Position numbers and translations under genes: made by a program. The notes under the pieces are model-generated. The model had not been told where the DNA came from and did not search any database. It saw only the letters and a list, made by a program, of their open reading frames with translations. DNA of 16,816 nt from Candidatus Saccharimonadota bacterium (GTDB taxonomy: Bacteria; Patescibacteriota; Saccharimonadia; Saccharimonadales; Saccharimonadaceae): positions 1-16,816 of the forward strand of contig JAGCAL010000072.1 in assembly GCA_017652715.1 (NCBI GenBank), given 5' to 3'. Positions 1,972-16,671 of the stretch are shown here, piece after piece. Numbering within the stretch: position 1 is the first letter of the stretch; each line of letters begins with the position of its first letter.

Positions 1972-3084
1972 TTATTTTCTCCTTTTCTTTTTAATATCCT
2001 TCGCGGAGATACGAGTTATTTTTGTTCCTGTCTTTTTATTTTTAACCACCTTAGCTTCTTGAATATCCCTTAGTTCTTTTAAGACTACCTTATCGGTCAT
2101 GTCATCAATCTTTTTATCCACTTTCTTTAAAACAATCCTCTGTTGAACTACTGTTATTACATTGCTTAAGAAATAATAAAATGCCAACGCACCGTTCAAA
2201 TTAAACATAATAAAGAACATCATTAAAGGCATCATCATCGACATCTGCCCAGTTGCAAAACTATTTACATCCGAATTCTCTAATTCTTTCCCATCCTTAG
2301 CGTCTTTAATCAGCTCTCTAAACGTCTTGTGCTTCTCCGACTTCCCAGACGGCATCTGTTGCTTAGTCGCCCAATACTGCACAACAGAAGCCATAATTGC
2401 GCAAACTAGAATAAAGAATGCACTCCAACTAAATTTAGAAAACACATTGCTTGCCTTCACGTCTAAGCGAACCAGACCAAACAACTTCGGATGAAAGTCA
2501 TACTCAGTCTTTTCTTCTGCCGGTATCTCATCATTCGTTAAATCCTCTAGATATACCTTCTGTTTATCTTCTAGAGTCCGGATTTCCGAACCCTCGTATG
2601 CCACAAAATCATACGCTCGGTTTGATAAGTTGTCGATAGGCAGCGGCGTCGCAATCACACGAATCGCCGAAAAAATCGCTATAAATATCGGAAGCTGTAT
2701 GAATAAAGTCAAAATCGACGCAAACGGTTTTACATTATACCGTTTATAAAGATCCATCGTTTGTAAAGACTCTAACTGCTTATTACCTTTACAATTCTTC
2801 TTAATCTGAGTTAATTCTGGCTGCAACTTCCTCATTAATTTAGTCTGATTCAATTGCTTCTTCGTTAACGGCCAGAGGCACAACTTGACTATTACGGTAA
2901 AGATAATAATCGCTAAACCAAAATCGTGTACTAAATTAAATATTATAAATAAAATATTAACGATCGGCCTAACAATAATTAAATCAATAAAATTAAACGG
3001 ACTACCAGTTATGACCGACCCCACCACAAAAGCAACAAAGATCCCCCAATATATGAACTTTTTCACACTCATCCTATTCATCAT
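1972..3084 (-). CDS. yidC: YidC/Oxa1 membrane protein insertase
   Basis: This 370-residue protein inserts membrane proteins, alone or with SecYEG. The N-terminal segment FIYWGIFVAFVVGSVI (about 10-25) is hydrophobic. The Oxa1 core begins with a helix ending FGLAIIIFTVIVKLCLWPLT (about 55-74) followed by the amphipathic KKQLNQTKLMRKLQPEL cytoplasmic hairpin. Later hydrophobic segments start near LTLFIQLPIFIAIFSAI, FSWSAFFILVCAIMASVVQYW and MMPLMMFFIMFNLNGALAFYYFLSN. The C-terminus is lysine-rich (KDIKKKRRK), as in ribosome-binding tails. The conserved groove arginine of the IIxxTxIVR motif is lysine here (Lys67), so the positive charge is kept. An insertion of roughly 65 residues follows RVIATPLPI. 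The first of two tandem ATG codons at 3084 is chosen because a promoter -10 box sits 7 bases upstream. It lies 13 bases after rnpA and abuts jag. Confidence 0.93.
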   Translation of the reverse strand: MMNRMSVKKFIYWGIFVAFVVGSVITGSPFNFIDLIIVRPIVNILFIIFNLVHDFGLAIIIFTVIVKLCLWPLTKKQLNQTKLMRKLQPELTQIKKNCKGNKQLESLQTMDLYKRYNVKPFASILTLFIQLPIFIAIFSAIRVIATPLPIDNLSNRAYDFVAYEGSEIRTLEDKQKVYLEDLTNDEIPAEEKTEYDFHPKLFGLVRLDVKASNVFSKFSWSAFFILVCAIMASVVQYWATKQQMPSGKSEKHKTFRELIKDAKDGKELENSDVNSFATGQMSMMMPLMMFFIMFNLNGALAFYYFLSNVITVVQQRIVLKKVDKKIDDMTDKVVLKELRDIQEAKVVKNKKTGTKITRISAKDIKKKRRK

Positions 3085-3091
3085 TCCCTCT

Positions 3092-3100
3092 ATTATATCA
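3092..3100 (-). promoter_or_regulatory. Extended -10 promoter of yidC, predicted leaderless transcript
   Basis: Reading leftward the sequence is TGATATAAT, a consensus extended -10 (TGn plus TATAAT at 3097-3092). It overlaps the last codon and stop of rnpA. Seven bases separate the hexamer from the yidC ATG at 3084, so the predicted start site is 3084-3085. There is no convincing -35 hexamer. The GAGGG between the box and ATG is too close to the start to act as a normal ribosome-binding site. The promoter would allow yidC-jag to be expressed independently of rnpA. Confidence 0.6.
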
Positions 3101-3436
3101 CACTTTACTCTCTTGTATTAATTCCCCCAGATTCTTCTCTAGCTCCGAAAACTTCATCTTGAGTACATCTTTCGTAAAAATCACGAAAATATAATCCTTT
3201 TTCTTTGGCAGCTGTTCAAAATTCAGCCGAATCGCCTCATACACTCGCCTCCGAATCCGATTTCTTCCAACCGCCGATTTCTCCACCTTCTTCGATACAA
3301 CTACTGCCACTCGCATTAACCCCCTAGTGTTCTCAGCAAAAATCAACGACATCTTAGGTGAACGAATCGTCTTACCTTTCTGATAAACATATCTCACCCC
3401 GCCTCGCGAATGAAACCGATATTTCTTACTCAACAT
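3098..3436 (-). CDS. rnpA: Ribonuclease P protein component
   Basis: The 112-residue basic protein is of normal family size. It binds RNase P RNA and helps 5' maturation of tRNA precursors. It opens with the typical MLSKKYRFHSRGGVRYVYQKG, and carries the diagnostic block VVVSKKVEKSAVGRNRIRRR (about 46-65) with the RNR signature GRNRIRRRVYEAIR. It lies between rpmH and yidC, the near-universal bacterial order. There is no Shine-Dalgarno before its ATG; instead TATAAT ends 7 bases upstream. The gene is separated from rpmH by a hairpin. Identification is firm. Confidence 0.94.
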   Translation of the reverse strand: MLSKKYRFHSRGGVRYVYQKGKTIRSPKMSLIFAENTRGLMRVAVVVSKKVEKSAVGRNRIRRRVYEAIRLNFEQLPKKKDYIFVIFTKDVLKMKFSELEKNLGELIQESKV

Positions 3437-3443
3437 AAATATA

Positions 3444-3449
3444 ATTATA
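3444..3449 (-). promoter_or_regulatory. -10 box before rnpA, predicted leaderless transcript
   Basis: TATAAT (read leftward, 3449-3444) lies exactly 7 bases before the rnpA ATG at 3436, the same geometry as at yidC. The predicted transcription start is 3436-3437. No extended TG and no clear -35 are visible, and the region is very AT-rich, so a chance hexamer is possible. The repetition of the spacing at five other genes in the window raises confidence. Confidence 0.5.
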
Positions 3450-3450
3450 T

Positions 3451-3482
3451 AATAAATAAGCCCCGTAGGGCTATATTTATTA
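3451..3482 (-). terminator. Hairpin between rpmH and rnpA
   Basis: AATAAATAAGCCC (3451-3463) pairs with GGGCTATATTTATT (3468-3481), with a CGTA-type loop. Read leftward, the stem begins at the rpmH stop codon and is followed by an AT-rich run (TATATAATTATATTT) holding the rnpA -10 box. It could be an intrinsic terminator or attenuator that limits rpmH read-through into rnpA, or an mRNA-stabilising stem at the rpmH 3' end. It lacks a clean poly-U tract. Confidence 0.55.
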
Positions 3483-3617
3483 TGCTGTCAGCCGTGCACG
3501 ACCTTTAATGCGTCGTCGCGCTAATACCTTTCGCCCGTTCTTAGTGGCATTTCGTTTCAAAAAACCATGTTCAACTTTGCGCTGTCTTTTATGAGGCTGA
3601 TAAGTTCTTTTTGGCAT
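3480..3617 (-). CDS. rpmH: 50S ribosomal protein L34
   Basis: This 45-residue basic protein begins [19 protein letters not shown] and ends [12 protein letters not shown]. That matches the L34 pattern (MKRTYQPS..KR.R.HGF..R...K.GR.VL..RR.KGR..L). L34 is a small protein of the 50S subunit near the peptidyl transferase region. The start is set by the conserved N-terminus and an AAGGA sequence six bases before the ATG. The position next to rnpA and divergent from dnaA is the classic bacterial origin arrangement. The loop residues H18-G19-F20 differ little from the usual form. Confidence 0.95.
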
Positions 3618-3657
3618 ATTATTCCTTAAACTTTAATTTATTTCAAATTCTTTGTAT

Positions 3658-3686
3658 AGTATACTCTATTTTTCCACATTTTTCAA
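3658..3686 (-). promoter_or_regulatory. Sigma-70-type promoter of rpmH with a DnaA box in its spacer
   Basis: Read leftward, TTGAAA (3686-3681), a 17-base spacer, then TATACT (3663-3658) form a near-consensus housekeeping promoter. The predicted start is near 3651, giving a leader of about 34 bases that contains the AAGGA of rpmH. The spacer contains a complete DnaA box (3670-3678, TTTTCCACA on the + strand). DnaA bound there would compete with RNA polymerase, so regulation of rpmH by DnaA is a reasonable inference. Confidence 0.7.
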
Positions 3687-3794
3687 GCAGTTTTCCACAA
3701 CCTACTAGAGGACACTATTTTTTGTGGAAAACCCCTATCTATTTTCCAACAAAATATTATAATATATTATTTCCAAACCACATCCTGTGGAAAA
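3670..3794. other. DnaA-box cluster upstream of dnaA (first half of a bipartite origin)
   Basis: Four identical TTTTCCACA boxes differ from the consensus TTATCCACA at one position. Two are on the + strand (3670-3678 and 3691-3699) and two inverted as TGTGGAAAA (3723-3731 and 3786-3794). After the second box comes CTACTA (3702-3707), a short trio-like run. The rightmost box covers where the -35 region of the dnaA promoter would sit. The 218 bases between rpmH and dnaA hold no other gene; an apparent reading frame there is not credible. Confidence 0.8.
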
Positions 3795-3807
3795 CTTCGC
3801 CTTTTCA

Positions 3808-3832
3808 TGCTATACTAGCTACTAAAAGGAGG
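3808..3832 (+). promoter_or_regulatory. dnaA promoter (extended -10) and strong ribosome-binding site
   Basis: TGCTATACT (3808-3816) is an extended -10 element, with a predicted start near 3823. AGGAGG (3827-3832) is a full Shine-Dalgarno only three bases before the ATG at 3836. No -35 hexamer is apparent; a DnaA box (3786-3794) occupies that place. This suggests autorepression by DnaA, as known in other bacteria (inference). Confidence 0.6.
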
Positions 3833-3835
3833 TAA

Positions 3836-5194
3836 ATGTACGACGTTTGGAAAAATGTCTTGGCTGAAATCGAGCAACAAATTTCTGCTGCTAATTTTTC
3901 CACTTGGTTCCAAGACACATCCCTCCTCTCAACCGAAGATGGACAAATCGAAATTGGTGTCAAAAACTCTTTCTATATTAAACAGCTTGAATCCCGCTAC
4001 TTAAATCTTATTACTACTGCACTAAAAAACAATAATGTCGATGTCGTCGCCGTAAAGTTTAAAGTCAATTCTCTCCCAAAAACTAAGTCTCGCGCCCGTG
4101 AGGTTATAAAAGAGGAAGACCCCATCAAAAGTCGCTTCAAAAAAATCCAGTCCTTAAAAACCAGCCAAACCCTAAACAATGGACTTAATAATAAATACAC
4201 GTTAGATAATTTCGTCATCGGCTCAAACAACGAGCTCGCTGTCGCTGCAGCTAAAAGTATTATTGCTTCTCCCGGTACTCGCTACAACCCTTTCTTCCTT
4301 TACGGAGGACCAGGTCTTGGTAAAACCCACCTCGTTCAAGCTATCGGCAACGAACTCCTCCGAATTAACCCAGATTACAAAATCTTCTATACCCCAATTT
4401 CCCATTTTTATTCAGATTTCATCGACGCCATCCAAAATGGCAAAGGTAAAGAATTTAATCGTAAATTCCAAAAACTAGACTGCCTAATCATTGATGATTT
4501 CCAGCTCATTATTAATAAAGAGAAATCCCAAGAAGAATTCTTTAATATATTCAATGACTTATACCAGCTCAACAAACAAATCATCGTCACTTCCGATCGC
4601 CTTCCTTCTCAAATTAAGACCGTAGATGAACGCCTCGCCTCTCGTCTAACGTGGGCCGGGGCTTTCGACCTGCAGCTCCCTAAATTTGAAGATAAATGTG
4701 CAATATTACGCACAAAAGCCGAACTCCTTGGCGCAGAAATAGAACCAGAAGCAATTGAATATATCGCTGAAAATGTTAACACAAACATCCGCGACCTCGA
4801 AGGCGAATTCTCAACCATCCTCTTAATGTCCGAGGTTCGCGGTCTTACCCCTCTCGAACTAATCCAAAATGGCTCAGTAAATGTCAATAAGACTTCTAAA
4901 TTACGACCAACCTCCCCAAAACAAATTGTCGACAAAGTTGCCAAATACTACCACTTAACTACGAAAGAAATGTGTGGAAAATCCCGCGTCTCTAACATTA
5001 AAAATGCCCGCCAGGTCACAATGTTTATCTTGTCAAAAGAGCTAAGCCTAAGTACTAATAAAATCGCGTCCGAAGTTGGCGTTAAAGACCACACAACCGT
5101 CATGCATGGGATTAAAAAAATTGAACAGCAATTAAAGCTAGACTTCGCCCTTCGCGACCAGATTGAAGAGATTAAGGAGAAAATATATGACTAA
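3836..5194 (+). CDS. dnaA: Chromosomal replication initiator protein DnaA
   Basis: DnaA (452 residues, normal length) binds DnaA boxes, oligomerises with ATP and opens the origin. Domain I spans about 1-80 (VWKNVLAEIEQQISAANFSTWF is typical). Domain II is a basic linker of about 35 residues. Domain III is the AAA+ core, with Walker A GGPGLGKT (157-164), Walker B LIIDD (217-221), sensor I TSDR (252-255), the arginine finger in RLASR (266-270), and sensor II NIRDLEG (317-323). Domain IV carries the DNA-binding helix-turn-helix with the signature KDHTTVMHG (417-425). The usual LSKSRKRE motif is altered to MCGKSRVSNIKNARQ. The start follows a strong Shine-Dalgarno. DnaA-box clusters flank the gene on both sides. 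Confidence 0.96.
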   Translation: MYDVWKNVLAEIEQQISAANFSTWFQDTSLLSTEDGQIEIGVKNSFYIKQLESRYLNLITTALKNNNVDVVAVKFKVNSLPKTKSRAREVIKEEDPIKSRFKKIQSLKTSQTLNNGLNNKYTLDNFVIGSNNELAVAAAKSIIASPGTRYNPFFLYGGPGLGKTHLVQAIGNELLRINPDYKIFYTPISHFYSDFIDAIQNGKGKEFNRKFQKLDCLIIDDFQLIINKEKSQEEFFNIFNDLYQLNKQIIVTSDRLPSQIKTVDERLASRLTWAGAFDLQLPKFEDKCAILRTKAELLGAEIEPEAIEYIAENVNTNIRDLEGEFSTILLMSEVRGLTPLELIQNGSVNVNKTSKLRPTSPKQIVDKVAKYYHLTTKEMCGKSRVSNIKNARQVTMFILSKELSLSTNKIASEVGVKDHTTVMHGIKKIEQQLKLDFALRDQIEEIKEKIYD

Positions 5195-5428
5195 TGTGGA
5201 AAAAGTGTTCAAAAACCAGTTTAAAAAACCGTGTAAATCTAGTCCAAAATCTTGTTCAAAACTAACCACTAAAATTCACGTTGTGTATTTCACGCATTTT
5301 TACAATACTTATTCACAGTTTTTAACTTTTTTATCCACCATAAAATCACCCCTATCAAATTCCTGTCTTTTCCACTTTTCCACCAAGTCTACTACAACAA
5401 CTAATAAATAATATATGAAAGGAAACTT
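5195..5428. other. oriC: Probable oriC core, dnaA-dnaN intergenic region
   Basis: This 234-base AT-rich gap holds no gene. DnaA-box-like 9-mers are TGTGGAAAA (5195-5203, inverted, beginning at the dnaA stop), TTATTCACA (5309-5317), TTATCCACC (5331-5339), TTTTCCACT (5368-5376) and TTTTCCACC (5376-5384). The last two are tandem and followed by a trio-like run and AT-rich DNA. A repeat TGTTCAAAA occurs at 5206-5214 and 5253-5261. With the cluster upstream of dnaA this makes a bipartite origin of the type known in Bacillus and Helicobacter. Strand skew would be needed to confirm it is the active origin. Confidence 0.75.
5368..5406 (+). other. Candidate basal unwinding element: tandem DnaA boxes plus DnaA-trio run
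   Basis: Two touching DnaA boxes (5368-5384) are followed by the four-base spacer AAGT and then CTA CTA CAA CAA CTA ATA (5389-5406). On the lower strand these read 3'-GAT GAT GTT GTT GAT TAT-5'. This fits the published architecture of the DnaA-trio system (3'-GAT-5' repeats), with two trios best matched next to the boxes. AT-rich DNA follows (ATAAATAATATATG). The spacer is less GC-rich than in Bacillus and the middle trios are non-consensus. Confidence 0.55.
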
Positions 5429-7518: not shown

Positions 7519-9687
7519 GAATGCTGTAACTGGGTTTTGACTCCCCTCGAAATACAAAATATTGTTATAAGCCGTTTTGTCAGATGAGTATTGTTTAAGC
7601 GCCGCCGCCGCCCGAGCTAGAGAGACATATCTCTGGGCATATTTGTAAACCTGCCAATCTGAATTTGAACTTGAATTAACAAAGGCAGCCCCATTCGCAA
7701 TCCTCTTATCCGATTCGCTCATCCCTAGAGAAGTCTTCACCATATTTAATATATTACTTACGAAAGAAACGGAACTAGACTGAGTTTTTAATGATTCCAA
7801 AATACCTCCATCCACTACTCCGTTTGGAGTTTTTCTTTCGTCGTTATAGACTATAAAATCGGCTAAAGCTGAATTCTGATTAACGGTTCTCACCCCGGAG
7901 CTTAGTGTTGTGTTGTTGTTTATGAACTCAATAAACCCAGCATCATGATACGGATCGTTTAATGTTGATATATCGTAAGTCGCTATTTCTGTGCATTGTG
8001 GTGAACCTGTTGCATCAATACCGGGTAGAGTAATACAATCCCCGAAAGAACTTAAATAGCCATCCGAGGCATCCGCTAGTGACTGTGACCCAATTGAATT
8101 AATAGACTTACCAACTAAACTAGAAAAATTTTTAACTCCAGAAAAGAAAGAACTACCCTTATTATTTAATGATATGATTGCTAAGTTATAAAAAATTGAA
8201 CCAAGGAAAGTGTTTTTCGAAGTAATATCAAAAGGACTTTTTTCCATCCTCTCGACTTTTCTATCCATCGCGAGGACCGCATTATTTAATCTCGCGTAAC
8301 TGTTAATTGCCGCCTCATCTCCGGCTGTCGCTCCGCTAGCCTTCGCTAAAGATTTTCCAACATTCACTGCACCCTCGACTAGAAGTTCCCCGGCATTAAT
8401 CCCCTTTGTCGAACTAAAAGAATTATTGACTAGAGATGAATTAATTGTCGGCTCTACTACTCTTAAGGCTTCTTGATTTGCTGTACTTGAGCCGTTATTT
8501 ATATAGCGCCCAATTGAGCCCTTTACGTTTTTCTCAGCCGAAGCAACTGTTCCAGAAACCGCACCGGTCGTATTGTTCCCTACGGCGTTCCCTACTGTTT
8601 TTAAAATCCTATCCGATGAATAGTTTTCTACCGCATCCACGTCAACTTTACTGTTGGTTAATATTGCATATAAGCTCGGTGATTCTATTGGTGCTCCTTC
8701 TACTGTTACTATTTCTCCGGTCTTTACATCAACAACCTCCGATACTTCTCTTTCGTGTATATAATTCATCGCTTCGTTTATCTTCGAATTATTTCCCTCG
8801 CCAGCCTTCATCTTACTAATGTTTTCCATAAAAGCTACATAAAACAAACTTGACTTCTGTTCCTTCGCGATAGTATCTGCAACCTTAAGTGAATCAGCCG
8901 AATTCATAGTCGCCTCCTCGGTGCTAGCGGCATGGTTTTTCTCACCTACCGCGCTAATGAAATTCGAGGCGACGTTTGACTTCGCGTTATTCCCTAGCTC
9001 CTCATATTCATAAATAATACTTTTCTCACCAGTCTCTTGATTTATTACTTCCTTCTCAACTAGGCCAACGGTATTTACATCAATATCACTTCCCTCCCCA
9101 ATCAGCTTCGACATCGCTTCCTCAAAATCGTCATCCTCTGTGAAATTATTACGGCTAGTTCCAATCTCTCGAAAAACCTTTTTTGCCGATTCGTCGTAAT
9201 AATAAGCGGCTCGGTTATAAGTTGCATCATTAAACGCCTTATATAATTCAGCGTCATTACTTACTTCTCTCACGAAATCATCTGCAGAAATAATCCTTTC
9301 ACCTTTTTGTAAGAAAATCTCTCCGCTTTCTTCATCCTTCTCAACCAAAAATCCTTCATCCTCTAAAATACGTTCTGTATCGTTTGGGATTTCCCCTTCA
9401 CGCATGGCTTGTTGGAAAACAATCTTTTTACTTTCAACCGCGTCGGCATACTGCACGTCAGTTTCTTCGATTAATTGATCTGAAATTATCGACGGTATTA
9501 TATTGCCAGAACTGAACAAAACGCCAAAAAATAAAACCATTGCAGCGACAAATCCGGTCGCTCCAACCGACATCGACTTCTTACCGGTTTTTGATGGCTT
9601 TTTTGCCTTTCCGGATACATTTGCGATAATCTGATTGTTTTTAAGCGCTTGTTTTTCGTTAGACCTTAGTAGTTCCTCAGCGGACAT
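7462..9687 (-). CDS. Unknown 741-residue membrane-anchored extracytoplasmic protein
   Basis: I do not recognise a family. An upstream in-frame start would add 28 residues, but the ATG at 9687 (MSAEELLRSNEKQALKNNQ) is preferred: an extended -10 box ends 6 bases before it, and the extension would run through the divergent promoter into the next gene. A basic cytoplasmic segment (1-39) is followed by one transmembrane helix (about 40-58, VGATGFVAAMVLFFGVLF). The remainder is a large Ser/Asn/Glu-rich, probably surface-exposed region with many helical stretches. A mildly hydrophobic segment lies near residues 495-510 (LGSIFYNLAIISL), and two cysteines sit about 14 residues apart near 550-564, possibly disulfide-bonded. 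Its gene order and size recall the large surface proteins of Saccharibacteria, possibly secretion or attachment related, but that is speculation. The end overlaps recF. Confidence 0.8.
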   Translation of the reverse strand: MSAEELLRSNEKQALKNNQIIANVSGKAKKPSKTGKKSMSVGATGFVAAMVLFFGVLFSSGNIIPSIISDQLIEETDVQYADAVESKKIVFQQAMREGEIPNDTERILEDEGFLVEKDEESGEIFLQKGERIISADDFVREVSNDAELYKAFNDATYNRAAYYYDESAKKVFREIGTSRNNFTEDDDFEEAMSKLIGEGSDIDVNTVGLVEKEVINQETGEKSIIYEYEELGNNAKSNVASNFISAVGEKNHAASTEEATMNSADSLKVADTIAKEQKSSLFYVAFMENISKMKAGEGNNSKINEAMNYIHEREVSEVVDVKTGEIVTVEGAPIESPSLYAILTNSKVDVDAVENYSSDRILKTVGNAVGNNTTGAVSGTVASAEKNVKGSIGRYINNGSSTANQEALRVVEPTINSSLVNNSFSSTKGINAGELLVEGAVNVGKSLAKASGATAGDEAAINSYARLNNAVLAMDRKVERMEKSPFDITSKNTFLGSIFYNLAIISLNNKGSSFFSGVKNFSSLVGKSINSIGSQSLADASDGYLSSFGDCITLPGIDATGSPQCTEIATYDISTLNDPYHDAGFIEFINNNTTLSSGVRTVNQNSALADFIVYNDERKTPNGVVDGGILESLKTQSSSVSFVSNILNMVKTSLGMSESDKRIANGAAFVNSSSNSDWQVYKYAQRYVSLARAAAALKQYSSDKTAYNNILYFEGSQNPVTAFLESFYASNDDLVVFEVVD

Positions 9688-9723
9688 ATTAAAATTATAA
9701 CATATTTTGGTATAATTAAAAAC
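9688..9723. promoter_or_regulatory. Overlapping divergent extended -10 promoters, both predicted leaderless
   Basis: On the + strand TGGTATAAT (9708-9716) lies 7 bases before the GTG at 9724. On the - strand TGTTATAAT (9702-9694) lies 6 bases before the ATG at 9687. The two hexamers are only 11 bases apart, and each -35 area falls next to the other gene's start, so the polymerases should compete. Neither start has a Shine-Dalgarno. The whole 36-base space between the two genes is promoter. Confidence 0.7.
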
Positions 9724-10947
9724 GTGAATAGAGAAGTAATTATCCCGACTAAGATTGTCCCGGGCGGCCAAGCCCTCGGGGAGTTAAAGAGCGGCAAAAA
9801 AGTTTTCCTCTGGGGAGCCTTACCCGGCGAAGAGGTAATAGATTATGATATTACGAAAAACAAATCACGCTACCTCGAAGCGATTGCCACAAGAATACTG
9901 AATAACTCTCCTTGGCGGGTTACGCCGAAAGACAACGTCTACCTATCTACATCGCCTTGGCAAATCATAGAGTATAGTAACGAACTCAATCTGAAGCGCG
10001 AGCTTGTGGTTGAAATTTTCCGCGAGCACCATATTGATATTCCAACTCCAGAAATACTTACCGACAATAAAGACTATTTCTATCGTAATAAGATGGAATA
10101 TTCACTTTATTGGAACAATGAAACCAGTAAAATTGAACTTGCCTTTCATGAACGCGGCTCACACCGTAAAGTACCAATTATCACTTCATCCATCGAACGT
10201 CCTGAGATTTTTAATCGCGCAAGAGCTATTATTGATGAGCTAAATTCTCGCGGCGAGCAAGCCCGTAAATATCAGTCACTACTTTTACGCTGTAATAAAA
10301 ACGGTGAAGTTTCCGGCGGGCTTTATGAAAATAATAAACCACATCAGAAATTCAAAAACCTTACTGATACTATTCTAGGTTATGAGTACTCCTATTCCCC
10401 AAACGGCTTTTTCCAGATTAATCTCCCGGTCTACGAAATGGCGCTAAAAGAAATTAAACAACATATCATAACCGACAAAGTCCTAGACCTCTATGCCGGT
10501 GTCGGCACTATTGGCCTTTCGGTTGCAGGGGGCAAGCAGCTGACCTTGGTCGAAGTTGATAAGTTTGCTTTTGAAGAAATGAAAAAGAACTGCGAGCAGT
10601 CAATTTATAAAGACGAAAGCTATAGTGAAAACAAATCGTCGGCTGAACTAGCTCAAGCAAAATGCCCGGTCGCAATCCTTGCTAAATCTGAAGAAGTTTT
10701 AGAATACATAGAACCAGAGCAGACAGTAATCTTAGACCCCCCTCGCGCTGGCTGTGACAAAAAGTTAATCGATAAGTTAACAGAAATAAAACCTCGGACA
10801 GTAATTTATCTCTCTTGCAACCCATCTACGCAGGCAAGAGACATTAAATTATTAGAAGAGGTATATAATATCAAGGCTATTAAAGTATTTAACTTCTTCC
10901 CTCATACTCCACATATTGAGAACCTAGTTGTATTAGAAAGAAAATAA
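9724..10947 (+). CDS. RNA uracil-5-methyltransferase of the RlmD/RlmCD/TrmA family, without iron-sulfur ligands
   Basis: The 407-residue enzyme should methylate C5 of a uridine in rRNA (or tRNA) using S-adenosylmethionine. An N-terminal TRAM-like region runs to about residue 57 (PGGQALGELKSGKKVFLWGALPGEEV). Later come SPNGFFQIN (225-233), the SAM-binding DLYAGVGTIGL (255-265), DPPRAG (338-343), and SCNP with catalytic Cys365 (364-367). FFPHTPHIENLVVLER carries the proposed base Glu399. The cysteines that hold a [4Fe-4S] cluster in RlmD are missing: the matching stretch reads NVYLSTSPWQIIEY (71-84). The GTG start fits the upstream promoter geometry. The family is clear; which uridine it modifies is not. 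Confidence 0.88.
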   Translation: MNREVIIPTKIVPGGQALGELKSGKKVFLWGALPGEEVIDYDITKNKSRYLEAIATRILNNSPWRVTPKDNVYLSTSPWQIIEYSNELNLKRELVVEIFREHHIDIPTPEILTDNKDYFYRNKMEYSLYWNNETSKIELAFHERGSHRKVPIITSSIERPEIFNRARAIIDELNSRGEQARKYQSLLLRCNKNGEVSGGLYENNKPHQKFKNLTDTILGYEYSYSPNGFFQINLPVYEMALKEIKQHIITDKVLDLYAGVGTIGLSVAGGKQLTLVEVDKFAFEEMKKNCEQSIYKDESYSENKSSAELAQAKCPVAILAKSEEVLEYIEPEQTVILDPPRAGCDKKLIDKLTEIKPRTVIYLSCNPSTQARDIKLLEEVYNIKAIKVFNFFPHTPHIENLVVLERK

Positions 10948-10991: not shown

Positions 10992-11000
10992 TGGTAAAAT
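10992..11000 (+). promoter_or_regulatory. Extended -10 promoter of tRNA-Ser
   Basis: TGGTAAAAT (10992-11000) is an extended -10 box whose predicted start lies about 5 bases before the mature tRNA 5' end at 11012. It follows an AT-rich run after the methyltransferase stop at 10947. No clear -35 is visible. Confidence 0.55.
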
Positions 11001-11011
11001 AAGGAAAAGAT

Positions 11012-11101
11012 GGAAGTGTGGCCGAGTGGTTGAAGGCGCACGCTTGGAAAGCGTGTAAAGGGGCGACTCTTTCGCAGGTTCGAATCCTGTCGCTTCCGCC
11101 A
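11012..11101 (+). tRNA. tRNA-Ser(GGA)
   Basis: The acceptor stem GGAAGTG (11012-11018) pairs with CGCTTCC (11091-11097) with one G-T pair. Discriminator G is at 11098, and CCA is encoded at 11099-11101. The anticodon arm is CACGC-TTGGAAA-GCGTG with anticodon GGA at 11046-11048. It has the long variable arm expected of a class II serine tRNA (AAAG...CTTT) and a T arm AGG-TTCGAAT-CCT. It reads UCC and UCU codons. It ends 61 bases before an exact copy of its own 3' terminus. Confidence 0.95.
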
Positions 11102-11179
11102 TAAAGCTTCAGCGAGAGCTTGCTCTCGATGAAGATTTATAAGGAAGCAAGAGGATAAACTTTCCTGTCGCTTCCGCCA
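11085..11179 (+). repeat. 17-base direct repeat of the tRNA-Ser 3' end (att-like), spaced 78 bases
   Basis: TCCTGTCGCTTCCGCCA occurs at 11085-11101 (the tRNA 3' end) and again at 11163-11179. Flanking bases differ on both sides. Integrases that use tRNA genes duplicate the tRNA 3' end in this way, so the second copy may be the scar of an excised or eroded element. The second copy also pairs with GGAAGC at 11143-11148, forming an acceptor-stem-like GGAAGC/GCTTCC with an inner AGGA-TAAACTT-TCCT hairpin and a terminal GCCA. This makes a small tRNA-like fold. Origin is uncertain. Confidence 0.8.
11107..11134 (+). terminator. Strong hairpin after tRNA-Ser
   Basis: CTTCAGCGAGAGC (11107-11119) pairs with GCTCTCGATGAAG (11122-11134) around a short TT loop, with a single A-G-type mismatch. 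It follows the tRNA by five bases and is succeeded by ATTTAT rather than a poly-U run. It may be a terminator or a processing stem. Confidence 0.5.
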
Positions 11180-11199
11180 AGTTAATTTACAATTAAAAA

Positions 11200-11220
11200 T
11201 GCAAAAACTTGTTTTTTGCA
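11200..11220 (+). terminator. Hairpin with T-rich arm upstream of the ABC operon
   Basis: TGCAAAAA (11200-11207) pairs with TTTTTGCA (11213-11220) around CTTGT. It lies between the tRNA-like repeat and the leader ORF. It is weak and AT-rich and could end the tRNA transcript or form part of the ABC operon leader. A smaller 6-bp palindrome TGGAAT-AATC-ATTCCA follows at 11233-11248 and could be an operator. Confidence 0.35.
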
Positions 11221-11280
11221 ATGTATTAAGGGTGGAATAATCATTCCAGATAAAAATAAGGCATTAAAGGAGGTATAAGG

Positions 11281-11325
11281 ATGACAATCTTGCCATCGCC
11301 ATTAAAAGGTGGAAACCATGAGTGA
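11281..11325 (+). CDS. Candidate 14-residue leader peptide overlapping the ABC ATPase start
   Basis: An ATG preceded by AAAGGAGG (11265-11272 area) opens a 14-codon frame, [14 protein letters not shown], ending in TGA at 11323-11325. The stop overlaps the start region of the downstream ATPase (ATG 11318), the two frames sharing ATGAGTGA. The second half of the leader codons (AAAGGTGG) doubles as the ATPase Shine-Dalgarno. This arrangement permits translational coupling or leader-peptide control of the transporter. It is the best ribosome-binding site in the region, which is why I report so short a frame; no homologue is known to me. Confidence 0.5.
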   Translation: MTILPSPLKGGNHE

Positions 11326-12136
11326 AAACATCTTAATAGAATTAAAAGGATTAACTAAGCGATATGGATATGGCGATACCGAATCCTTTGCCTTAAAAGA
11401 TTTCGATCTTACCATTAAACGCGGCGAATTTATTATGATCATGGGCCCAAGCGGTTGCGGTAAAACGACGCTGCTTAATATTATCGGCCTTTTGGACCGC
11501 GCCACAAAAGGTGAATACATTTTGAACGGCGAAAACGTCGCCAGTATATCATCCCGTCGTCAATCTCGTTTACGTGCTAAAAAAATCGGCTTTATTTTCC
11601 AAAATTTTAACCTTATTGAAGACCTGCCCATCCTTGAGAATGTCGCTCTTCCGCTTATCTATTCTGGCTACTCTAAGACAGCTCGTTTAAAGAACGCCTC
11701 AAGTGCCCTAAAACGTTTCCATCTCCAAGAACGTGAATATTATCTTCCCTACCAACTTTCCGGCGGACAACAGCAGCGCGTCGCAATCGCCCGTGCTATC
11801 GTTAGCGATCCGGAAATTATCCTAGCCGACGAGCCAACTGGTAACCTAGACTCTCGCTCTTCACATGTTGTTATGGAGGAATTGAAGGCTATCCACGAAG
11901 AAGGTAACACTATTATTATGGTGACGCATAACCCAGCTCTAACCGTTTACGCTACTAGGGTTATTAATATGCTTGATGGCCAAATTGATACCGACGTGAA
12001 AACGGTTGCCGACCAGAACCTTCCTCAGCCGATTAGTGTTAAGATTAAAAAGAAGAAAGATAACTTTGCTGCTCTCGAGCTTCCGGAATCTAAAGAATCT
12101 AGAAAATCTCGAAGAAAGAATAGGAGGAAAAAATAA
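11318..12136 (+). CDS. ABC transporter ATP-binding subunit, MacB/LolD type
   Basis: The 272-residue ATPase has Walker A GPSGCGKT (43-50), Q-loop Gln95 (FIFQNFNLI), signature LSGGQ (147-151), Walker B ILADE (168-172) and H-loop His204 (MVTHNP). The VALPLIYSG and DEPTGNLDS stretches are typical of the MacB/LolD/FtsE group. A GTG at 11309 is also in frame, but ATG 11318 is better placed behind AAAGGTGG. A lysine/arginine-rich tail ([10 protein letters not shown]) extends past the usual domain. Its TAA shares one base with the ATG of the permease. With that protein it would form a mechanotransmission-type transporter for peptides, toxins or lipids; the substrate is unknown. Confidence 0.93.
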
Positions 12137-13368
12137 TGGCTAGTCTTATTAAAACTCATTTTAAACTTGCCCGTACTTCCATAAAAGAAAACCGTACGCG
12201 CTCTTTCCTAACCTGTCTCGGCATAGCTATCGGTGTAGCAAGTATCGTCTTGATTCTGTCTTTAATGGGCGGGATTTCTAATTTAGTCAAAAGCGAAATT
12301 AGTGAAATCGGCTCCGATCTTATAGTTGTTCGCCCTAGTAGTACTAAAGATAATATAACTAATATCGTAGAGGAACTTACCTCGGCTAATAACTTCCAAA
12401 AGAGTAACCTTACCGTCTCCGACGTTTCGGAGATTGCTAAAATTGAGGGTGTTTCCGCTGCTGCTCCTATAGCTATCTCGACCAACACGGTAACCTCCGA
12501 AAAAAATACTTTCTCTTCGGTCCCAGTCTTAGGAACGAATCTTGATTTCATTAAAATCGAGCCCCTAGCCCTTAAGTTTGGTGGCTTCCTGAATGAGCAA
12601 AACGAAGAAAATGCTGTCGTGCTCGGCCACACCCTTTCCCTTGCCCTGTTTAATACGATTAATAGCACGGTCGGTAAAACCATTAACATTATGGGTGAAA
12701 AATTCATGATAGTCGGGGTTCTTGACGAGGTCGAGAAGTCTATAAACTTTGACAATATAGATTTCGACAACGCCTTGATTATGGATGTCAAATCGCTCGA
12801 TAAAATTACCGGCTCAACCCAAATTCAACAAATTAACGTTAAAGCTGCGAACACTGATAGCCTCGCTAAAATATCAGAAGACATCAGAAATTCCCTCGTA
12901 ACCCAAAAGCTTGGCGATCAGAACTTCTCCGTTTCCTATGGTGACGCAATTACCCATCCTGCCAGCTCTCTGTTTACGATAGTATCTGGTATGCTAACAC
13001 TGGTTGCCGCAATTTCGCTAGTTGTTGGCGGGATTGGTATTATGAATATTATGCTAGTTTCCGTCGCTGAGCGCTCCCACGAGATTGGCGTCCGTAAAGC
13101 CGTTGGTGCTTCCTCTCGAAATATCCTCATGCAGTTCCTCTTCGAAGCTCTCATCCTTTCTATACTGGGTGGCATCTTTGGCCTTATTCTTGGCTATGTG
13201 CTCGCCTTCATTATCTCGACTCGTACTCCGTTCACTCCGTTTATTAGCTGGGAAATAGTCCTGCTAACCTTCCTAACGACCCTTATTGTCGGCATTATCT
13301 TTGGTATCTACCCAGCCGTTAAAGCTGCTTCGAAAAACCCTATCGATTCGCTCAAGCACTACCGCTAA
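12136..13368 (+). CDS. MacB/FtsX-type ABC transporter permease
   Basis: The 410-residue protein shows the MacB_PCD plus FtsX architecture. TM1 is near 24-46 (FLTCLGIAIGVASIVLILSL). An extracytoplasmic domain spans about 50-270. The FtsX core with three membrane segments runs from about 275 to the end. It includes GGIGIMNIMLVSVAERSHEIGVRKAVGA, the coupling-helix block typical of MacB, and ends YPAVKAASKNPIDSLKHYR. AGGAGG lies 8 bases before the start within the ATPase tail. No N-terminal ATPase is fused, as is normal for Gram-positive-type two-gene versions. No partner membrane-fusion protein gene adjoins, fitting a monoderm cell. Confidence 0.92.
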   Translation: MASLIKTHFKLARTSIKENRTRSFLTCLGIAIGVASIVLILSLMGGISNLVKSEISEIGSDLIVVRPSSTKDNITNIVEELTSANNFQKSNLTVSDVSEIAKIEGVSAAAPIAISTNTVTSEKNTFSSVPVLGTNLDFIKIEPLALKFGGFLNEQNEENAVVLGHTLSLALFNTINSTVGKTINIMGEKFMIVGVLDEVEKSINFDNIDFDNALIMDVKSLDKITGSTQIQQINVKAANTDSLAKISEDIRNSLVTQKLGDQNFSVSYGDAITHPASSLFTIVSGMLTLVAAISLVVGGIGIMNIMLVSVAERSHEIGVRKAVGASSRNILMQFLFEALILSILGGIFGLILGYVLAFIISTRTPFTPFISWEIVLLTFLTTLIVGIIFGIYPAVKAASKNPIDSLKHYR

Positions 13369-13382
13369 TAATATATATGCAT

Positions 13383-13388
13383 TATAAT
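13383..13388 (+). promoter_or_regulatory. -10 box before murE, predicted leaderless transcript
   Basis: TATAAT at 13383-13388 lies exactly 7 bases before the ATG at 13396, and there is no Shine-Dalgarno. It sits in a 27-base AT-rich gap after the permease stop. The predicted start is 13395-13396. Confidence 0.55.
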
Positions 13389-13395
13389 AACACTT

Positions 13396-14652
13396 ATGAA
13401 ACAGTTTTTAAGCCGACTCCCTCTTTATAACGAAATGGTCTTACCATACCATTATGCTCAATCTGTTGTGGCAAGTATTAAATACGGTTATCCAGGGAAA
13501 AAGCTTCGCGTTATCGGTGTTACTGGTACGAACGGCAAAACTACGACCTGCTTTATGATTTGGAAAATGCTAAATAGTAGCGGACATAAAACTGGTCTCA
13601 TGACTACTGTTGCCTACGGAATTGATAAGCTCGAACCGGAAACTGGCCATATGACGACGGTTGACGCTTTTACCCTTAATCGGCGTATTAAGAAAATCGC
13701 CGACCAAGGTGCGGAGTTTCTCGTCCTCGAAGTTACCTCCCACGCTCTTGCTGAATTTCGTACTCTTAATATCCCCTTCGAAATCGCTGTATTTACTAAC
13801 CTAACCCACGAGCATCTGGACTACCATAAAACCCTAGAAAAATATCGTGCAGCAAAAGGTAAACTCTTCAAGAAAGCCGCCTATTCTATTCTGAACGCTG
13901 ACGACCCGGCAACGAAATACTATAAAAAACTAACAGATGATTATTCGACTTATGGTATAAAAAACGGTCAGAATCGTCCAGAAAACCTAAAATTATCCGT
14001 AAATGGTGTAAAATATTCGCTCGGTGATATAAATATAGAGACAAACTTACCAGGCGAATTTAATGTCTATAATTCCCTAGCCGCTACTCTTGTTGGTAAA
14101 AAACTCGGACTTACAAACTCCCAGATTGAAACCGGCATTAAAGCCTTAAAAGAAGTTGAAGGGCGCATGAATATAATTGATGAAGGACAGCCATTTATGG
14201 TAATCGTCGACTACGCCCACACCCCAGATGCCCTAAACAATGTCTTCGAGGCCCTTAAAAACCATAAAGGTAAAATTATTTCTGTTCATGGTGGAGCTGG
14301 CAGGCGTGACCCTTCTACGCGCGAGGTTCGCGGTAGGCTCTTAGCTGAAAATTCTGATACTGTTATTATTACAGAAGATGATTCCAGAGACGAAAACCCC
14401 GAAACTATCGCCGCCGCTTTCATTAGGGGCGCCGAAAGCCAAGGAAAAATCCTCGGAAAAAATCTCTTTAAGGAGCTTGATCGTAAAGAAGCTATTAAAC
14501 TCGCCATAGAGAAAGCTAAACCTGACGATATCGTCCTAGTCCTCGGCAAAGGCCACGAGAAAACCATCCTTCGTGCCGACGGCCCACATGCATTTGAAGA
14601 TATTAAAGTTGCAAAAGAGTTGCTTAGGGCTAAAAACTTTACTCAAAAGTAA
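13396..14652 (+). CDS. murE: MurE-type UDP-MurNAc-tripeptide ligase, short N-terminus
   Basis: The 418-residue protein has the Mur ligase central and C-terminal domains: P-loop GTNGKTT (44-50), LEVTSHAL (111-118) with the metal Glu112 and His116, NLTHEHLDYH (135-144), the carbamylated-lysine position Lys154 in YRAAKGKLF, EGRMNII (255-261), DYAHTPDAL (272-280) and GKGHE (384-388). MurE adds the third amino acid of the peptidoglycan stem peptide in the cytoplasm. Only about 38 residues precede the P-loop, where E. coli-type MurE has a UDP-binding domain of about 90. The DNPR specificity motif reads DDSR (328-331), so the amino acid added cannot be assigned. The leaderless-type promoter argues that the short N-terminus is real. 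It could be another Mur-family amide ligase. Confidence 0.8.
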   Translation: MKQFLSRLPLYNEMVLPYHYAQSVVASIKYGYPGKKLRVIGVTGTNGKTTTCFMIWKMLNSSGHKTGLMTTVAYGIDKLEPETGHMTTVDAFTLNRRIKKIADQGAEFLVLEVTSHALAEFRTLNIPFEIAVFTNLTHEHLDYHKTLEKYRAAKGKLFKKAAYSILNADDPATKYYKKLTDDYSTYGIKNGQNRPENLKLSVNGVKYSLGDINIETNLPGEFNVYNSLAATLVGKKLGLTNSQIETGIKALKEVEGRMNIIDEGQPFMVIVDYAHTPDALNNVFEALKNHKGKIISVHGGAGRRDPSTREVRGRLLAENSDTVIITEDDSRDENPETIAAAFIRGAESQGKILGKNLFKELDRKEAIKLAIEKAKPDDIVLVLGKGHEKTILRADGPHAFEDIKVAKELLRAKNFTQK

Positions 14653-14658
14653 TATTTC

Positions 14659-14679
14659 ATGTTATCATTAAAATAACAT
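14659..14679. promoter_or_regulatory. Perfect 7-bp inverted repeat between murE and the next gene
   Basis: ATGTTAT (14659-14665) and ATAACAT (14673-14679) flank CATTAAA. A possible -10, TAAAAT (14669-14674), lies inside, with a predicted start near 14681 and a weak GGGA before the ATG at 14694. It could be an operator over a promoter or a weak end signal for murE. Confidence 0.35.
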
Positions 14680-14693
14680 AAACGGGAATAACT

Positions 14694-15875
14694 ATGGAAA
14701 ATAACAATACTGGCGCTGCGCCATCTAGCGCGCCGGAACAACCGCCTATTAACTCTAATAAAATTGCGGCGTCGGAAACCGTAAAAGCTGAACCGGTTCA
14801 GAAAAAGAAACATACCGGCTTAATTGTTGGCATTATTGTAGCTGTTCTGCTTTTGATTGCTGGCGGCGTATTCGCGGCGTTCGCAATCGTTAAGAATCAA
14901 CCAGAAAATATTGCTGCCGAATCATTTAACAATCTAGTCAACGCGAAACAAGTCGCTATCTCTGGTACCTTCTCTCTTACACCTAAGGGTGACTATGTAG
15001 ACAGCATGACCCCAGTTAACGTCAAACTCGAATCTAAAGCTGCTAATGCCAACCAGTCTGCTACTACAACAATCTCCGTCAACTACGGCGACAGTCAAAA
15101 AACGATTGAGCTCGAAGTCGGAGAGATATTTCTAAATAACGGTGTTTTCTATCTGAAAGCTAGCGGCATTAAGAAGATTTATGACGAATTCTTGCATGAT
15201 ATGTTAGAGGAGTATCTATATTCCGGAACTCCTAGTCAAATCGCTGCTATCGAAAGTCGTATCGAGAATATCATCAAAAAAGTTGATGATCAATGGTTCG
15301 AATTTTCCATTGAGGATATCTTAGCAAGCGAACTCATTAGCACATATCTAGGCCAAACCGAAAAAGATACAATAAGCAAAGCTTATGATTGCTCGATGCG
15401 AATTTACAAAAATTTGCCACAGTATACCCAGGAAATCTCAGACCTATACTCTGAAAACAAATTCCTCGTTTTAGAGCCAGCCCAAAACTCATTCTATAAA
15501 GTTTCGTTTGATGCCGATAACCTAGCTAATTATCTCAACGCTATTCCAGAAACTAAAATCATTGCCGACTATACAAACTGCAATAATTTCCAAATCACCG
15601 AAGAGACGTATTCAAAAGTTTCGTCTAGTGACCTCTCTAGAGCGATGGAAGAATTACCAAACATCTATACTAAATTCGACGGCTTCCTGAATCATCACCT
15701 TACCGAAGTTAAGGTCGAAAAGGAAGATGAATATTACTCAGTAACGTCTGACATTAACATTGCTTATCCGACCAACCTAACTATTACCGCTCCTTCGGGT
15801 GCTCGTCCGATTATGGATCTCGTCCAAGACGTCATCCAAGAAATAACTAACCTATACCAGTCGCTCTACGAATAA
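14694..15875 (+). CDS. Unknown single-pass membrane-anchored extracytoplasmic protein
   Basis: I do not recognise a family. The 393-residue protein has a Pro/Asn/Ala-rich cytoplasmic N-terminus (1-36), a KKKH stop, one transmembrane helix (about 42-66, GLIVGIIVAVLLLIAGGVFAA), then about 325 extracytoplasmic residues. That region begins ESFNNLVNAKQVAISGTFSL and continues with alternating strand-like and helix-like segments, resembling the layout of anchored lipid- or polymer-binding proteins, but no motif confirms this. There are only two cysteines in the outer region (near 236 and 302). A Lys-rich flank before the helix gives an N-in orientation. It lies between two Mur-type genes and may serve the envelope; that is context only. 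Confidence 0.8.
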   Translation: MENNNTGAAPSSAPEQPPINSNKIAASETVKAEPVQKKKHTGLIVGIIVAVLLLIAGGVFAAFAIVKNQPENIAAESFNNLVNAKQVAISGTFSLTPKGDYVDSMTPVNVKLESKAANANQSATTTISVNYGDSQKTIELEVGEIFLNNGVFYLKASGIKKIYDEFLHDMLEEYLYSGTPSQIAAIESRIENIIKKVDDQWFEFSIEDILASELISTYLGQTEKDTISKAYDCSMRIYKNLPQYTQEISDLYSENKFLVLEPAQNSFYKVSFDADNLANYLNAIPETKIIADYTNCNNFQITEETYSKVSSSDLSRAMEELPNIYTKFDGFLNHHLTEVKVEKEDEYYSVTSDINIAYPTNLTITAPSGARPIMDLVQDVIQEITNLYQSLYE

Positions 15876-15883
15876 GATTGATT

Positions 15884-15941
15884 AAATTGTAGACTTGGCC
15901 GAATTAATTTGGATAATATTCGGCCAAACCGTCTACAATTT
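15884..15941. terminator. Long hairpin between convergent genes, probable bidirectional terminator
   Basis: AAATTGTAGAC (15884-15894) pairs with GTCTACAATTT (15931-15941), and TTGGCCGAAT (15895-15904) with ATTCGGCCAA (15918-15927), with a three-base bulge ACC at 15928-15930. The + strand continues into a T run (15939-15944). It ends the 393-aa gene, and its right half lies within the last codons of the leftward Mur-like gene, so that coding sequence is constrained by the fold. Confidence 0.75.
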
Positions 15942-16653
15942 TTTCAGCTTCTATACCTAGCGTGCTTGCAATCGCGGTAGCACAAGCCATATAAGAGACC
16001 GCGGTCTCGCCCGGTACGAACGATGCTGCATTTACAATCTCGGACTTTATCGAGAAAGTCGCCTCTGTTCCCTTTGCATATAGTTTAGAATTCAAGATTT
16101 TTACATCAGACGACGAAAGCCCGTAGCTTATCGTCTTCTCACTTCCCTTAAATTCGGAAAAAGTCTCATAATTTATATCATCGTGATTCAATACGACGAT
16201 TTTCGGTTTCATGTCGAACAGAGTTTTTTCGTTATCGAGGTATTCCGCCGGTTCCATATCGGAAAGTCCAGCCGTAACGAAGTTCGTCATTGCCGCAACC
16301 ATCACTGGTAATCCATAAAATACGTTATCTCTTAACCCTTCAGCTGGGACCGTTACGACTACATAATTTGCCCCCGCTTTCCAAGCGTCGGAAAGAAACT
16401 TATGCAGCATCCCGACTTTAAAAGGCTGATCGCTAGCTAGAACTGCTACTTGCTCACCTGCTGACTTCAAAATTTCATGTACGAAATGCGCAACCACGGT
16501 TTTACCAGTAGTACCAGTAATCGCAATAAGCTTCATATCCTTAATCGGGTTGCCGTAGTAAGTCTTCAAAGCCTGCGCCTTAATTTTTTGTGCCTTTTTC
16601 TTAAAACCACCGTTTTTATTTTTGGTTCGGCTTGTACTTTCCCTCTCTCTCAT
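15904..16653 (-). CDS. Degenerate Mur-ligase-like P-loop protein, central domain only
   Basis: This 249-residue protein has a basic linker (1-40), then KLIAITGTTGKT with P-loop GTTGKT (47-52), and the remaining central-domain fold (AMTNFV...AEYLDNEKTLFDMKPKIVVLNHDD). It ends where the C-terminal Mur domain would begin, with no DYAHTP or GKGHE motif. Compared with the MurE at 13396, the metal-binding Glu/His block LEVTSHAL is VTVPAEGL, NLTHEHLDYH is NFVTAGLSDM, and the carbamylated lysine position holds Glu142. Nucleotide binding is plausible, but ligase activity as usually understood is not. There is no sign of frameshift; the last codons lie in a terminator hairpin. A regulatory or accessory role in wall synthesis is conjecture. 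Confidence 0.75.
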   Translation of the reverse strand: MRERESTSRTKNKNGGFKKKAQKIKAQALKTYYGNPIKDMKLIAITGTTGKTVVAHFVHEILKSAGEQVAVLASDQPFKVGMLHKFLSDAWKAGANYVVVTVPAEGLRDNVFYGLPVMVAAMTNFVTAGLSDMEPAEYLDNEKTLFDMKPKIVVLNHDDINYETFSEFKGSEKTISYGLSSSDVKILNSKLYAKGTEATFSIKSEIVNAASFVPGETAVSYMACATAIASTLGIEAEKIVDGLAEYYPN

Positions 16654-16662
16654 AATAGCCCT

Positions 16663-16671
16663 ATTATACCA
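16663..16671 (-). promoter_or_regulatory. Extended -10 promoter of the Mur-like gene
   Basis: Read leftward, TGGTATAAT (16671-16663) is a perfect extended -10. It lies 9 bases before the ATG at 16653, giving a leader of at most about 3 bases and no Shine-Dalgarno. Base 16654-16680 holds no other signal. Confidence 0.6.

Follow-up and report, generated by a model that had tools for sequence, protein, structure and literature searches.

Extended -10 boxes at a fixed distance from start codons point to leaderless genes beside Shine-Dalgarno genes in a Saccharibacterium

The leaderless mode of gene expression is itself known elsewhere. In the available part of Zheng et al. 2011 (PMC3160421), TA-led genes are described, in which a -10-like signal about 10 bases before the start replaces the Shine-Dalgarno sequence, and which occur beside Shine-Dalgarno genes; in several low-GC genomes, most strongly in Lactococcus, the box is preceded there by a TG peak. 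About one quarter of the genes of Mycobacterium tuberculosis were mapped experimentally as leaderless, with a dominant -10 and a -35 motif that was not found, according to the accessible portion of Cortes et al. 2013 (PMC3898074). In the bidirectional promoters of E. coli, the starts are mostly 18 bp apart, with 10 and 23 also common (PMC12825309, in the sections available). A literature search found no description of the leaderless mode in Saccharibacteria. The stretch of DNA analysed here (the window; 16,816 nucleotides) comes from a member of this lineage, a tiny-genome bacterium.

Six boxes and their start codons in the window

Six genes carry the hexamer TATAAT 6–9 bases before the start codon, at exactly the spacings given in the preliminary description, and the TGn that it had placed before four of the six boxes was confirmed. 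The putative leaderless start of yidC (3082–3100, reverse strand) comprises TGA and TATAAT (3092–3097), a spacer of 7 bases and the ATG (3082–3084), and a -10 with at most one mismatch and a spacer of 5–9 recurs in 63 of 71 orthologues. That of rnpA (3434–3449, reverse strand) has TATAAT at 3444–3449 without TGn, again a spacer of 7, and the ATG at 3434–3436 (-10 in 58/76 orthologues). The gene for a 741-residue protein, probably leaderless as well (9685–9702, reverse strand), begins with TGT and TATAAT (9694–9699), a spacer of 6 and the ATG at 9685–9687 (37/54 orthologues). Its promoter stands back to back with that of a tRNA/rRNA (uracil-5-)methyltransferase-like gene, whose candidate leaderless start (9708–9726, forward strand) consists of TGG and TATAAT (9711–9716), a spacer of 7 and a GTG at 9724–9726 (61/71 orthologues). 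The predicted leaderless start of murE (13383–13398, forward strand) has TATAAT at 13383–13388 without TGn, a spacer of 7 and the ATG at 13396–13398; the -10 is found in 26 of 61 orthologues, and many of the remaining murE genes abut the permease stop. A gene with a Mur-ligase middle domain would be leaderless or near-leaderless (16651–16671, reverse strand), with TGG and TATAAT (16663–16668), a spacer of 9 and the ATG at 16651–16653; all 13 orthologues have the box.

The pattern TATAATN{6,9}RTG matches the window exactly six times, and all six matches are these gene starts. Dinucleotide shuffles of the window, which do not require matches to lie at gene starts, gave a mean of 1.72 matches, and 2 of 200 reached six. 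Six of 15 starts with TATAAT correspond to a probability of about 1e-7 to 3e-6 at a per-gene chance of 1.7–3%, a rough estimate taken from exact TATAAT at other distances.

The comparison set comprises six genes for which a clear Shine-Dalgarno sequence had been claimed, and it is present in all six, with TATAAT in none of them within 45 bases upstream. These are jag (1979–1985, reverse strand; conserved in 72/72 orthologues), rpmH (3623–3627, reverse strand; 79/79, of which 14 also have a -10 under a loose definition), dnaA (3825–3832, forward strand; 80/80), dnaN (5418–5423, forward strand; 79/79), a short leader ORF before an ABC ATPase (11266–11274, forward strand) and a MacB/FtsX-type permease (12122–12127, forward strand; 67/67). 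The claim that no member of the TATAAT set has a usable Shine-Dalgarno stands with a qualification for yidC: its spacer does hold GAGGG, yet this lies upstream of the expected transcript start. Three of the 15 starts checked fit either set poorly, namely recF, which overlaps the dnaN end, the gene at 14694 encoding 393 residues, and the ABC ATPase, with AAAGG alone upstream. The 741- and 393-residue proteins have no match in Pfam. At the contig edge (16803–16816, reverse strand), the sequence TCACCTCCTTTTTT is presumably the 3′ end of a 16S rRNA gene with its anti-Shine-Dalgarno intact; the 16S rRNA Rfam model matched 0/1 and 0/12 genomes, and we suspect that rRNA genes were masked or left unbinned.

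Start signals across genomes and related loci

The pattern TATAATN{6,7}ATG occurs 142 times in the genome of the window, versus 44 times when the spacing is moved by 10, while TGNTATAATN{4,9}ATG occurs 119 times, versus 5 for the reversed pattern. Genes were called with our own simple caller in 37% of this genome and in 400 kb of another of the same genus. A -10-like box 5–9 bases before the start is present in 49/190 and 67/361 genes, respectively, with 10–17 and 17–29 in slid controls; in 100 kb of E. coli, used as a control, it precedes 1 of 87 genes, with 0–3 in controls. These counts support the genome-wide dual strategy proposed in the preliminary description. The profile that it had suggested computing has, in the samples of the two genomes, a sharp TATAAT peak at spacers 6–8, with few Shine-Dalgarno sequences in those genes. 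Both signals occur together in only 4 and 5 genes (Fisher p 2e-8 and 3e-15), so 4/49 and 5/67 of the -10 genes have a Shine-Dalgarno, at or below the slid background (29–33/190 and 52–91/361). Part of this anticorrelation is geometric, since the -10 box occupies much of the Shine-Dalgarno zone. The statement that the two sets do not mix goes too far, and strict separation is rejected; about one third of the genes (68/190 and 123/361) have neither signal.

TGn directly precedes the box in 36/45 of the -10 genes, as in extended -10 promoters, and GTG starts are rare (4/45). No clear -35 element is apparent, with a weak excess of sites having at most three mismatches to TTGACA (28/36, versus 53% in shuffles). 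The RpoD region with IRIPVHMVE is intact in the seven sequences read (the genome's own RpoD and six of the genus, with PVHMVE in each); the sigma region 3.0 residues, the His and Glu of HxxE, are thus both present. A pyrimidine precedes the start codon in 41/45 and 56/62 of the -10 genes, compared to 31/73 and 82/171 of those with a Shine-Dalgarno, a bias that would follow from transcription beginning on the A of the start codon. Among the related loci, this pyrimidine is frequent at spacer 6 (58/68) and not common at spacers 7 (36/82) and 8 (18/79), which weighs against such a start.

The related loci (80 loci with 1110 genes, which are orthologues and hence non-independent) have a bimodal -10-to-start distance, with peaks at 6–9 and 21–30 and a trough at 11–20. 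A spacer of 6–9 is found in 258 genes, 16 with a Shine-Dalgarno, and one of 21–30 in 89 genes, 72 with a Shine-Dalgarno. The mode is conserved across these loci for most window genes; murE, rnpA and the 741-residue gene switch mode among relatives. The start position of yidC is variable, and 20 of its 71 orthologues have both signals by the criteria used, with AAGGAG within the spacer in some loci (L051, L054, L060 and L068).

Proposed mode of initiation and its alternatives

RNA polymerase starts 6–9 bases downstream of the -10. We consider it very probable that the boxes are extended -10 promoters of leaderless mRNAs, in a genome that also has Shine-Dalgarno genes and a large group of genes lacking both signals. 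A sizeable minority of genes in this Nanosyncoccus-kind Saccharibacterium would thus begin with one short cassette, TRTGnTATAAT followed by 6–8 bases and ATG. The motif would be a complete extended -10 promoter that the housekeeping sigma factor reads largely or wholly without a -35; from promoter geometry, transcription is predicted to begin on the A of the start codon or no more than about 3 bases away. The mRNA would then have no space for a Shine-Dalgarno and so would have to be translated as leaderless. Other genes would have a -10 about 21–30 bases upstream together with a Shine-Dalgarno, or be internal to operons. An account of the leaderless mode by missing translation factors was dropped because S1 and IF3 occur in most genomes of the genus (IF3 in 11/12, a long S1-like match in 10/12; the window's own bin, 79% complete, has a short S1-domain match only). 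Their presence neither proves nor excludes translation from a 5′-terminal start codon by a 70S or IF2 route.

Were the boxes chance products of AT-rich start regions rather than working promoters, the transcripts would come from upstream promoters and carry leaders with a weak or no Shine-Dalgarno. Many bacteria do have AT-rich start regions, 11 of 45 marked genes lie at most 25 bases from a same-strand gene, and scrambled TAATAT likewise becomes more frequent close to gene starts (10, 6 and 4 matches at spacers 4–6), which fits an echo of TATAATAT. However, the count falls when the spacing is shifted, and base composition does not explain the TGn, the trough at 11–20 or the bimodality; on these grounds we reject chance or AT-rich sequence as a sufficient explanation, and we regard such leadered transcripts as very unlikely. 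We give as little credence to real promoters with true starts further downstream, where short or normal leaders would lie inside the called coding sequence. The codon-2 data argue against this: differing pairs are synonymous in 97% for rnpA (at most 6% upstream), 62% for the 741-residue gene (5% upstream) and 49% for murE (7% upstream), and no in-frame ATG with a Shine-Dalgarno was found in codons 3–25 of the -10 genes (0/45 and 0/62). Constraint from the first codon is thus clear in three of five genes, for which misplaced starts are rejected. This rejection does not extend to yidC, with its variable starts, and the methyltransferase gene, whose exact starts are less sure because of their little synonymous excess at codon 2 (0.12 and 0.16).

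A start codon might also be used twice, on a leaderless mRNA made from the gene's own promoter and, by Shine-Dalgarno or coupling, on leadered read-through transcripts of the preceding gene. The yidC orthologues with both signals, some inside the spacer, and the frequent position of marked genes close behind a same-strand gene speak for such dual use, while the rarity of both signals in the sampled -10 genes speaks against it. We hold it to be possible but doubtful; it supplements the leaderless reading more than it opposes it.

The cassette may also save space, as a signal of 18–20 bases would be the entire promoter, transcription start and translation start, giving a gene its own promoter without intergenic space. 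In 45/64 related loci, the 3′ end of rnpA contains the yidC promoter, which encodes the last RnpA residues, Cys-Tyr-Asn; in such tails Tyr is TAT in 48/50 and Asn is AAT in 48/48, against 71% and 66% usage in the same loci. We lean slightly towards regarding the leaderless cassette as a gene-packing device, in which a promoter, rather than protein function, may dictate the last residues of the preceding gene, as in RnpA, leaderless and read-through transcripts could both use one start codon, and back-to-back boxes may let divergent genes begin 34–40 bases apart.

Comparison with known systems

If this reading is correct, leaderless and Shine-Dalgarno initiation would operate side by side throughout Saccharibacteria, an ultrasmall epibiont lineage, and, on the same count, in many other Patescibacteria. 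Such a dual programme would bear on gene-start annotation in thousands of uncultured genomes and on tools for their expression, on translation start by reduced ribosomes, and on genome shrinkage through merging of promoter, transcript start and start codon.

The arrangement resembles that of the TA-led genes, with a -10 in place of the Shine-Dalgarno within one genome, at a fixed short distance above chance, and no Shine-Dalgarno beyond background. A difference from the TA-led genes described in the available part of PMC3160421 is that the present box matches TATAAT almost perfectly, at 42% GC; that part names no Saccharibacteria or other candidate phyla among the TA-led groups and mentions one unclassified genome. 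With M. tuberculosis, as far as the accessible portion of PMC3898074 describes it, the window's genome shares a leaderless fraction of about a quarter, here predicted from sequence, and a dominant -10. The mycobacterial box is, however, TANNNT with 7% TGN, and GTG starts are common there and rare here. The short stretch at 9687–9724 holds two -10 elements that face outward, which recalls the E. coli bidirectional promoters (PMC12825309, same sections). Starts lie about 10–23 bp apart there; here 37 bp separate the two start codons, and the -10 elements are consequently placed back to back without overlap. TRTGnTATAAT, an apparently weak -35 and an intact sigma region 3.0 are common to extended -10 promoters of the sigma-70 class and those described here, which differ in being placed such that the transcription start would coincide with the start codon.

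TATAAT boxes ahead of start codons

The window is one complete contig (C58) of a 640-kb genome (100 contigs, 79% complete) and carries LytR-like, jag, yidC, rnpA, rpmH, dnaA, dnaN and recF genes, among others; the names rnpA, rpmH, jag, dnaA, dnaN and recF derive from the preliminary description and gene order, not from a profile search. The pattern TATAATN{6,9}RTG matches six times in the window, each time at one of the six starts marked in that description (rnpA, yidC, a 741-aa gene, a methyltransferase gene, murE and a Mur-like gene). All six spacings that it gave between TATAAT and start codon are correct, as is the TGn extension claimed for four of the boxes. Among 15 window starts checked, the box precedes six and a clear Shine-Dalgarno sequence another six (all those for which one had been named); recF, a 393-aa gene and the ABC ATPase gene fit neither set well.

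In the whole genome, TGNTATAATN{4,9}ATG occurs 119 times, compared to 5 for the reversed pattern, and TATAATN{6,7}ATG 142 times, compared to 44 for TATAATN{16,17}ATG. Within 236 kb, ORFs of at least 80 codons whose ATG follows TATAAT number 28, 20 and 7 at spacers 6, 7 and 8 and 0–5 at every other spacer; the proposed peak at a fixed distance before starts lies at spacers 6–8. Start profiles were built with a simple gene caller, blind to upstream signals, and a -10-like box (at most one mismatch, spacer 5–9) was compared with the same zone slid upstream. It precedes 49 of 190 genes of this genome (10–17 in slid zones), 67 of 361 genes in 400 kb of G286, another genome from this genus (17–29), and 1 of 87 genes in 100 kb of E. 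coli (0–3). The pattern is real and genome-wide, and a rough estimate, with background subtracted, places 12–20% of genes in this class. A divergent gene pair at 9685–9726, with starts 37 bases apart, has extended -10 boxes back to back; four such cassettes occur in our own-genome sample, three in G286, none in E. coli and 23 in 80 related loci, mostly one and the same gene pair.

Counts at true and shifted spacing were compared in 286 genomes of the phylum, with a per-genome threshold of p < 0.01. They were 490 vs 126 in the genus (3/3 genomes significant), 780 vs 233 in the rest of the family (11/12), 287 vs 173 in the rest of the order (3/7), 158 vs 29 in the rest of the class (3/3) and 11651 vs 6814 in the rest of the phylum (114/261). 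The genus's three genomes all rank in the top four by excess, and in the 25 lowest genomes the true-spacing count falls below the shifted one.

Conservation of the starts and the yidC promoter

The related loci are the best 80 of 180 stretches found with the DnaA protein in species genomes. Almost all are labelled Candidatus Saccharibacteria; one is Ca. Nanosyncoccus alces (L044), a genome that the set may share with the G286 sample. Three saccharibacterial dnaA contigs, L034, L062 and L063 (82, 77 and 77% identical), sit in records assigned to Methanobrevibacter, Erysipelotrichaceae and uncultured bacterium, respectively; L034 and L062 are likely misbinned. Only placeable starts were counted, excluding matches that begin after residue 12 and starts less than 50 bases from a locus end; a -10 box required spacer 5–9 with at most one mismatch, and a Shine-Dalgarno sequence at least four bases. 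The box is present in 63/71 yidC, 58/76 rnpA, 61/71 methyltransferase, 37/54 741-aa, 26/61 murE and 13/13 Mur-like orthologues. A Shine-Dalgarno sequence is found in 72/72 jag, 79/79 rpmH, 80/80 dnaA, 79/79 dnaN, 67/67 permease, 51/67 ABC ATPase and 0/78 recF orthologues. The initiation mode changes between relatives for murE and the 741-aa gene: box-less murE orthologues mostly start abutting the permease stop, and in several loci (such as L036, L055, L059, L074 and L076) the box of the 741-aa gene lies ~22–27 bases upstream with AAGG between.

The start codons were assessed by the synonymous share of differing orthologue pairs at codon 2 compared with upstream triplets. This share is 97% for rnpA (at most 6% upstream), 62% for the 741-aa gene (at most 5%) and 49% for murE (at most 7%); yidC (12%) and the methyltransferase gene (16%) lack a synonymous signal at codon 2 in this comparison. 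An in-frame ATG with a Shine-Dalgarno sequence within codons 3–25 occurs in 0/45 -10 genes of this genome and 0/62 of G286.

The yidC box lies entirely within the rnpA frame in 45 of 64 loci. At this junction (L022, L024, L044 and others) the promoter forms the codons of a Val/Met-Cys-Tyr-Asn tail, and Cys-Tyr is found near the C-terminus of 50 of 76 RnpA proteins, encoded as TGY-TAT-AAT (46), TGC-TAT-ACT (2) or TGC-TAC-AAT (2). Tyr is TAT in 48/50 tails (background 71%) and Asn is AAT in 48/48 (background 66%), in relatives that are not independent. In view of this, the promoter, rather than the protein, probably dictates the RnpA tail.

Elsewhere in the window, the murE-like protein (13396–14652) matches Mur_ligase_M and Mur_ligase_C, with the N-terminal Mur domain not reported. 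The LytR-like gene and jag are separated by a large imperfect inverted repeat (1322–1497), with arms of 55 nt that are 73% complementary; it is possibly a small mobile element or a bidirectional terminator. The 17 bases that end tRNA-Ser (GGA; 11085–11101) recur exactly at 11163–11179, 78 bases downstream, a duplication resembling those that arise when an element integrates at the end of a tRNA gene.

Promoter architecture and relation to Shine-Dalgarno sequences

The four positions ahead of the spacer base are T, R, T and G in 25, 31, 32 and 31, respectively, of 36 promoters of this genome whose box is exact. A -35 element is not evident in own-genome promoters, although partial TTGACA matches slightly exceed expectation. 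Sigma factor region 3.0 (IRIPVHMVE), whose His and Glu presumably read the TG, is intact in seven sequences. A pyrimidine directly precedes the start codon in 41/45 -10 genes of this genome and 56/62 of G286, compared to 31/73 and 82/171 Shine-Dalgarno genes, an excess expected if transcription begins at the A of ATG. Across the 80 loci, this preference is seen at spacer 6 (58/68) but not at spacers 7 (36/82) and 8 (18/79), which speaks against a single rule for every spacing.

Both signals, the -10 box only, the Shine-Dalgarno sequence only and neither were found in 4, 45, 73 and 68 of the 190 own-genome genes and in 5, 62, 171 and 123 of the 361 G286 genes. The anticorrelation anticipated in the preliminary description is significant (Fisher p 2e-8 and 3e-15), but part of the effect is geometric, because the box occupies part of the Shine-Dalgarno zone. 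It is better stated that Shine-Dalgarno sequences are not above background in -10 genes (8% and 7%, compared to 15–17% and 14–25% in slid zones). The claim that the two sets do not mix goes too far: yidC has both signals in 20/71 orthologues, and rpmH also passes the loose -10 criterion in 14/79.

The TATAAT-to-start distance is bimodal among 1110 genes of the 80 loci, largely orthologues and thus not independent, and both peaks recur in the two sampled genomes. The peak at 6–9 holds 258 genes (16 with a Shine-Dalgarno sequence) and that at 21–30 holds 89 (72 with one); 43 genes lie at 11–20, 20 of which match recF, whose box sits within dnaN, in number and distance. On the minus strand, the contig breaks at TCACCTCCTTTTTT (16803–16816), a stretch that resembles the 3′ terminus of a 16S rRNA gene and whose anti-Shine-Dalgarno would be intact. 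No 16S rRNA was detected with the Rfam model in 12 genomes of the genus, where rRNA was probably masked or unbinned.

Comparison with known leaderless genes

Among the papers found by lineage name, none describes leaderless genes in Saccharibacteria. The GeneMarkS-2 survey (Lomsadze 2018) is the likeliest to cover a TM7 genome, and it possibly holds an earlier automatic leaderless prediction for a Saccharibacterium. In the accessible text of PMC7441243 and PMC10523443, “leaderless” appears only within reference titles, and in that of PMC6851277 a reference title concerns leaderless protein secretion. The accessible part of PMC12641178 notes only the broad conservation of YchF, which it ties to leaderless translation. 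In a lineage for which we found no description, these leaderless-type starts are of a kind already known.
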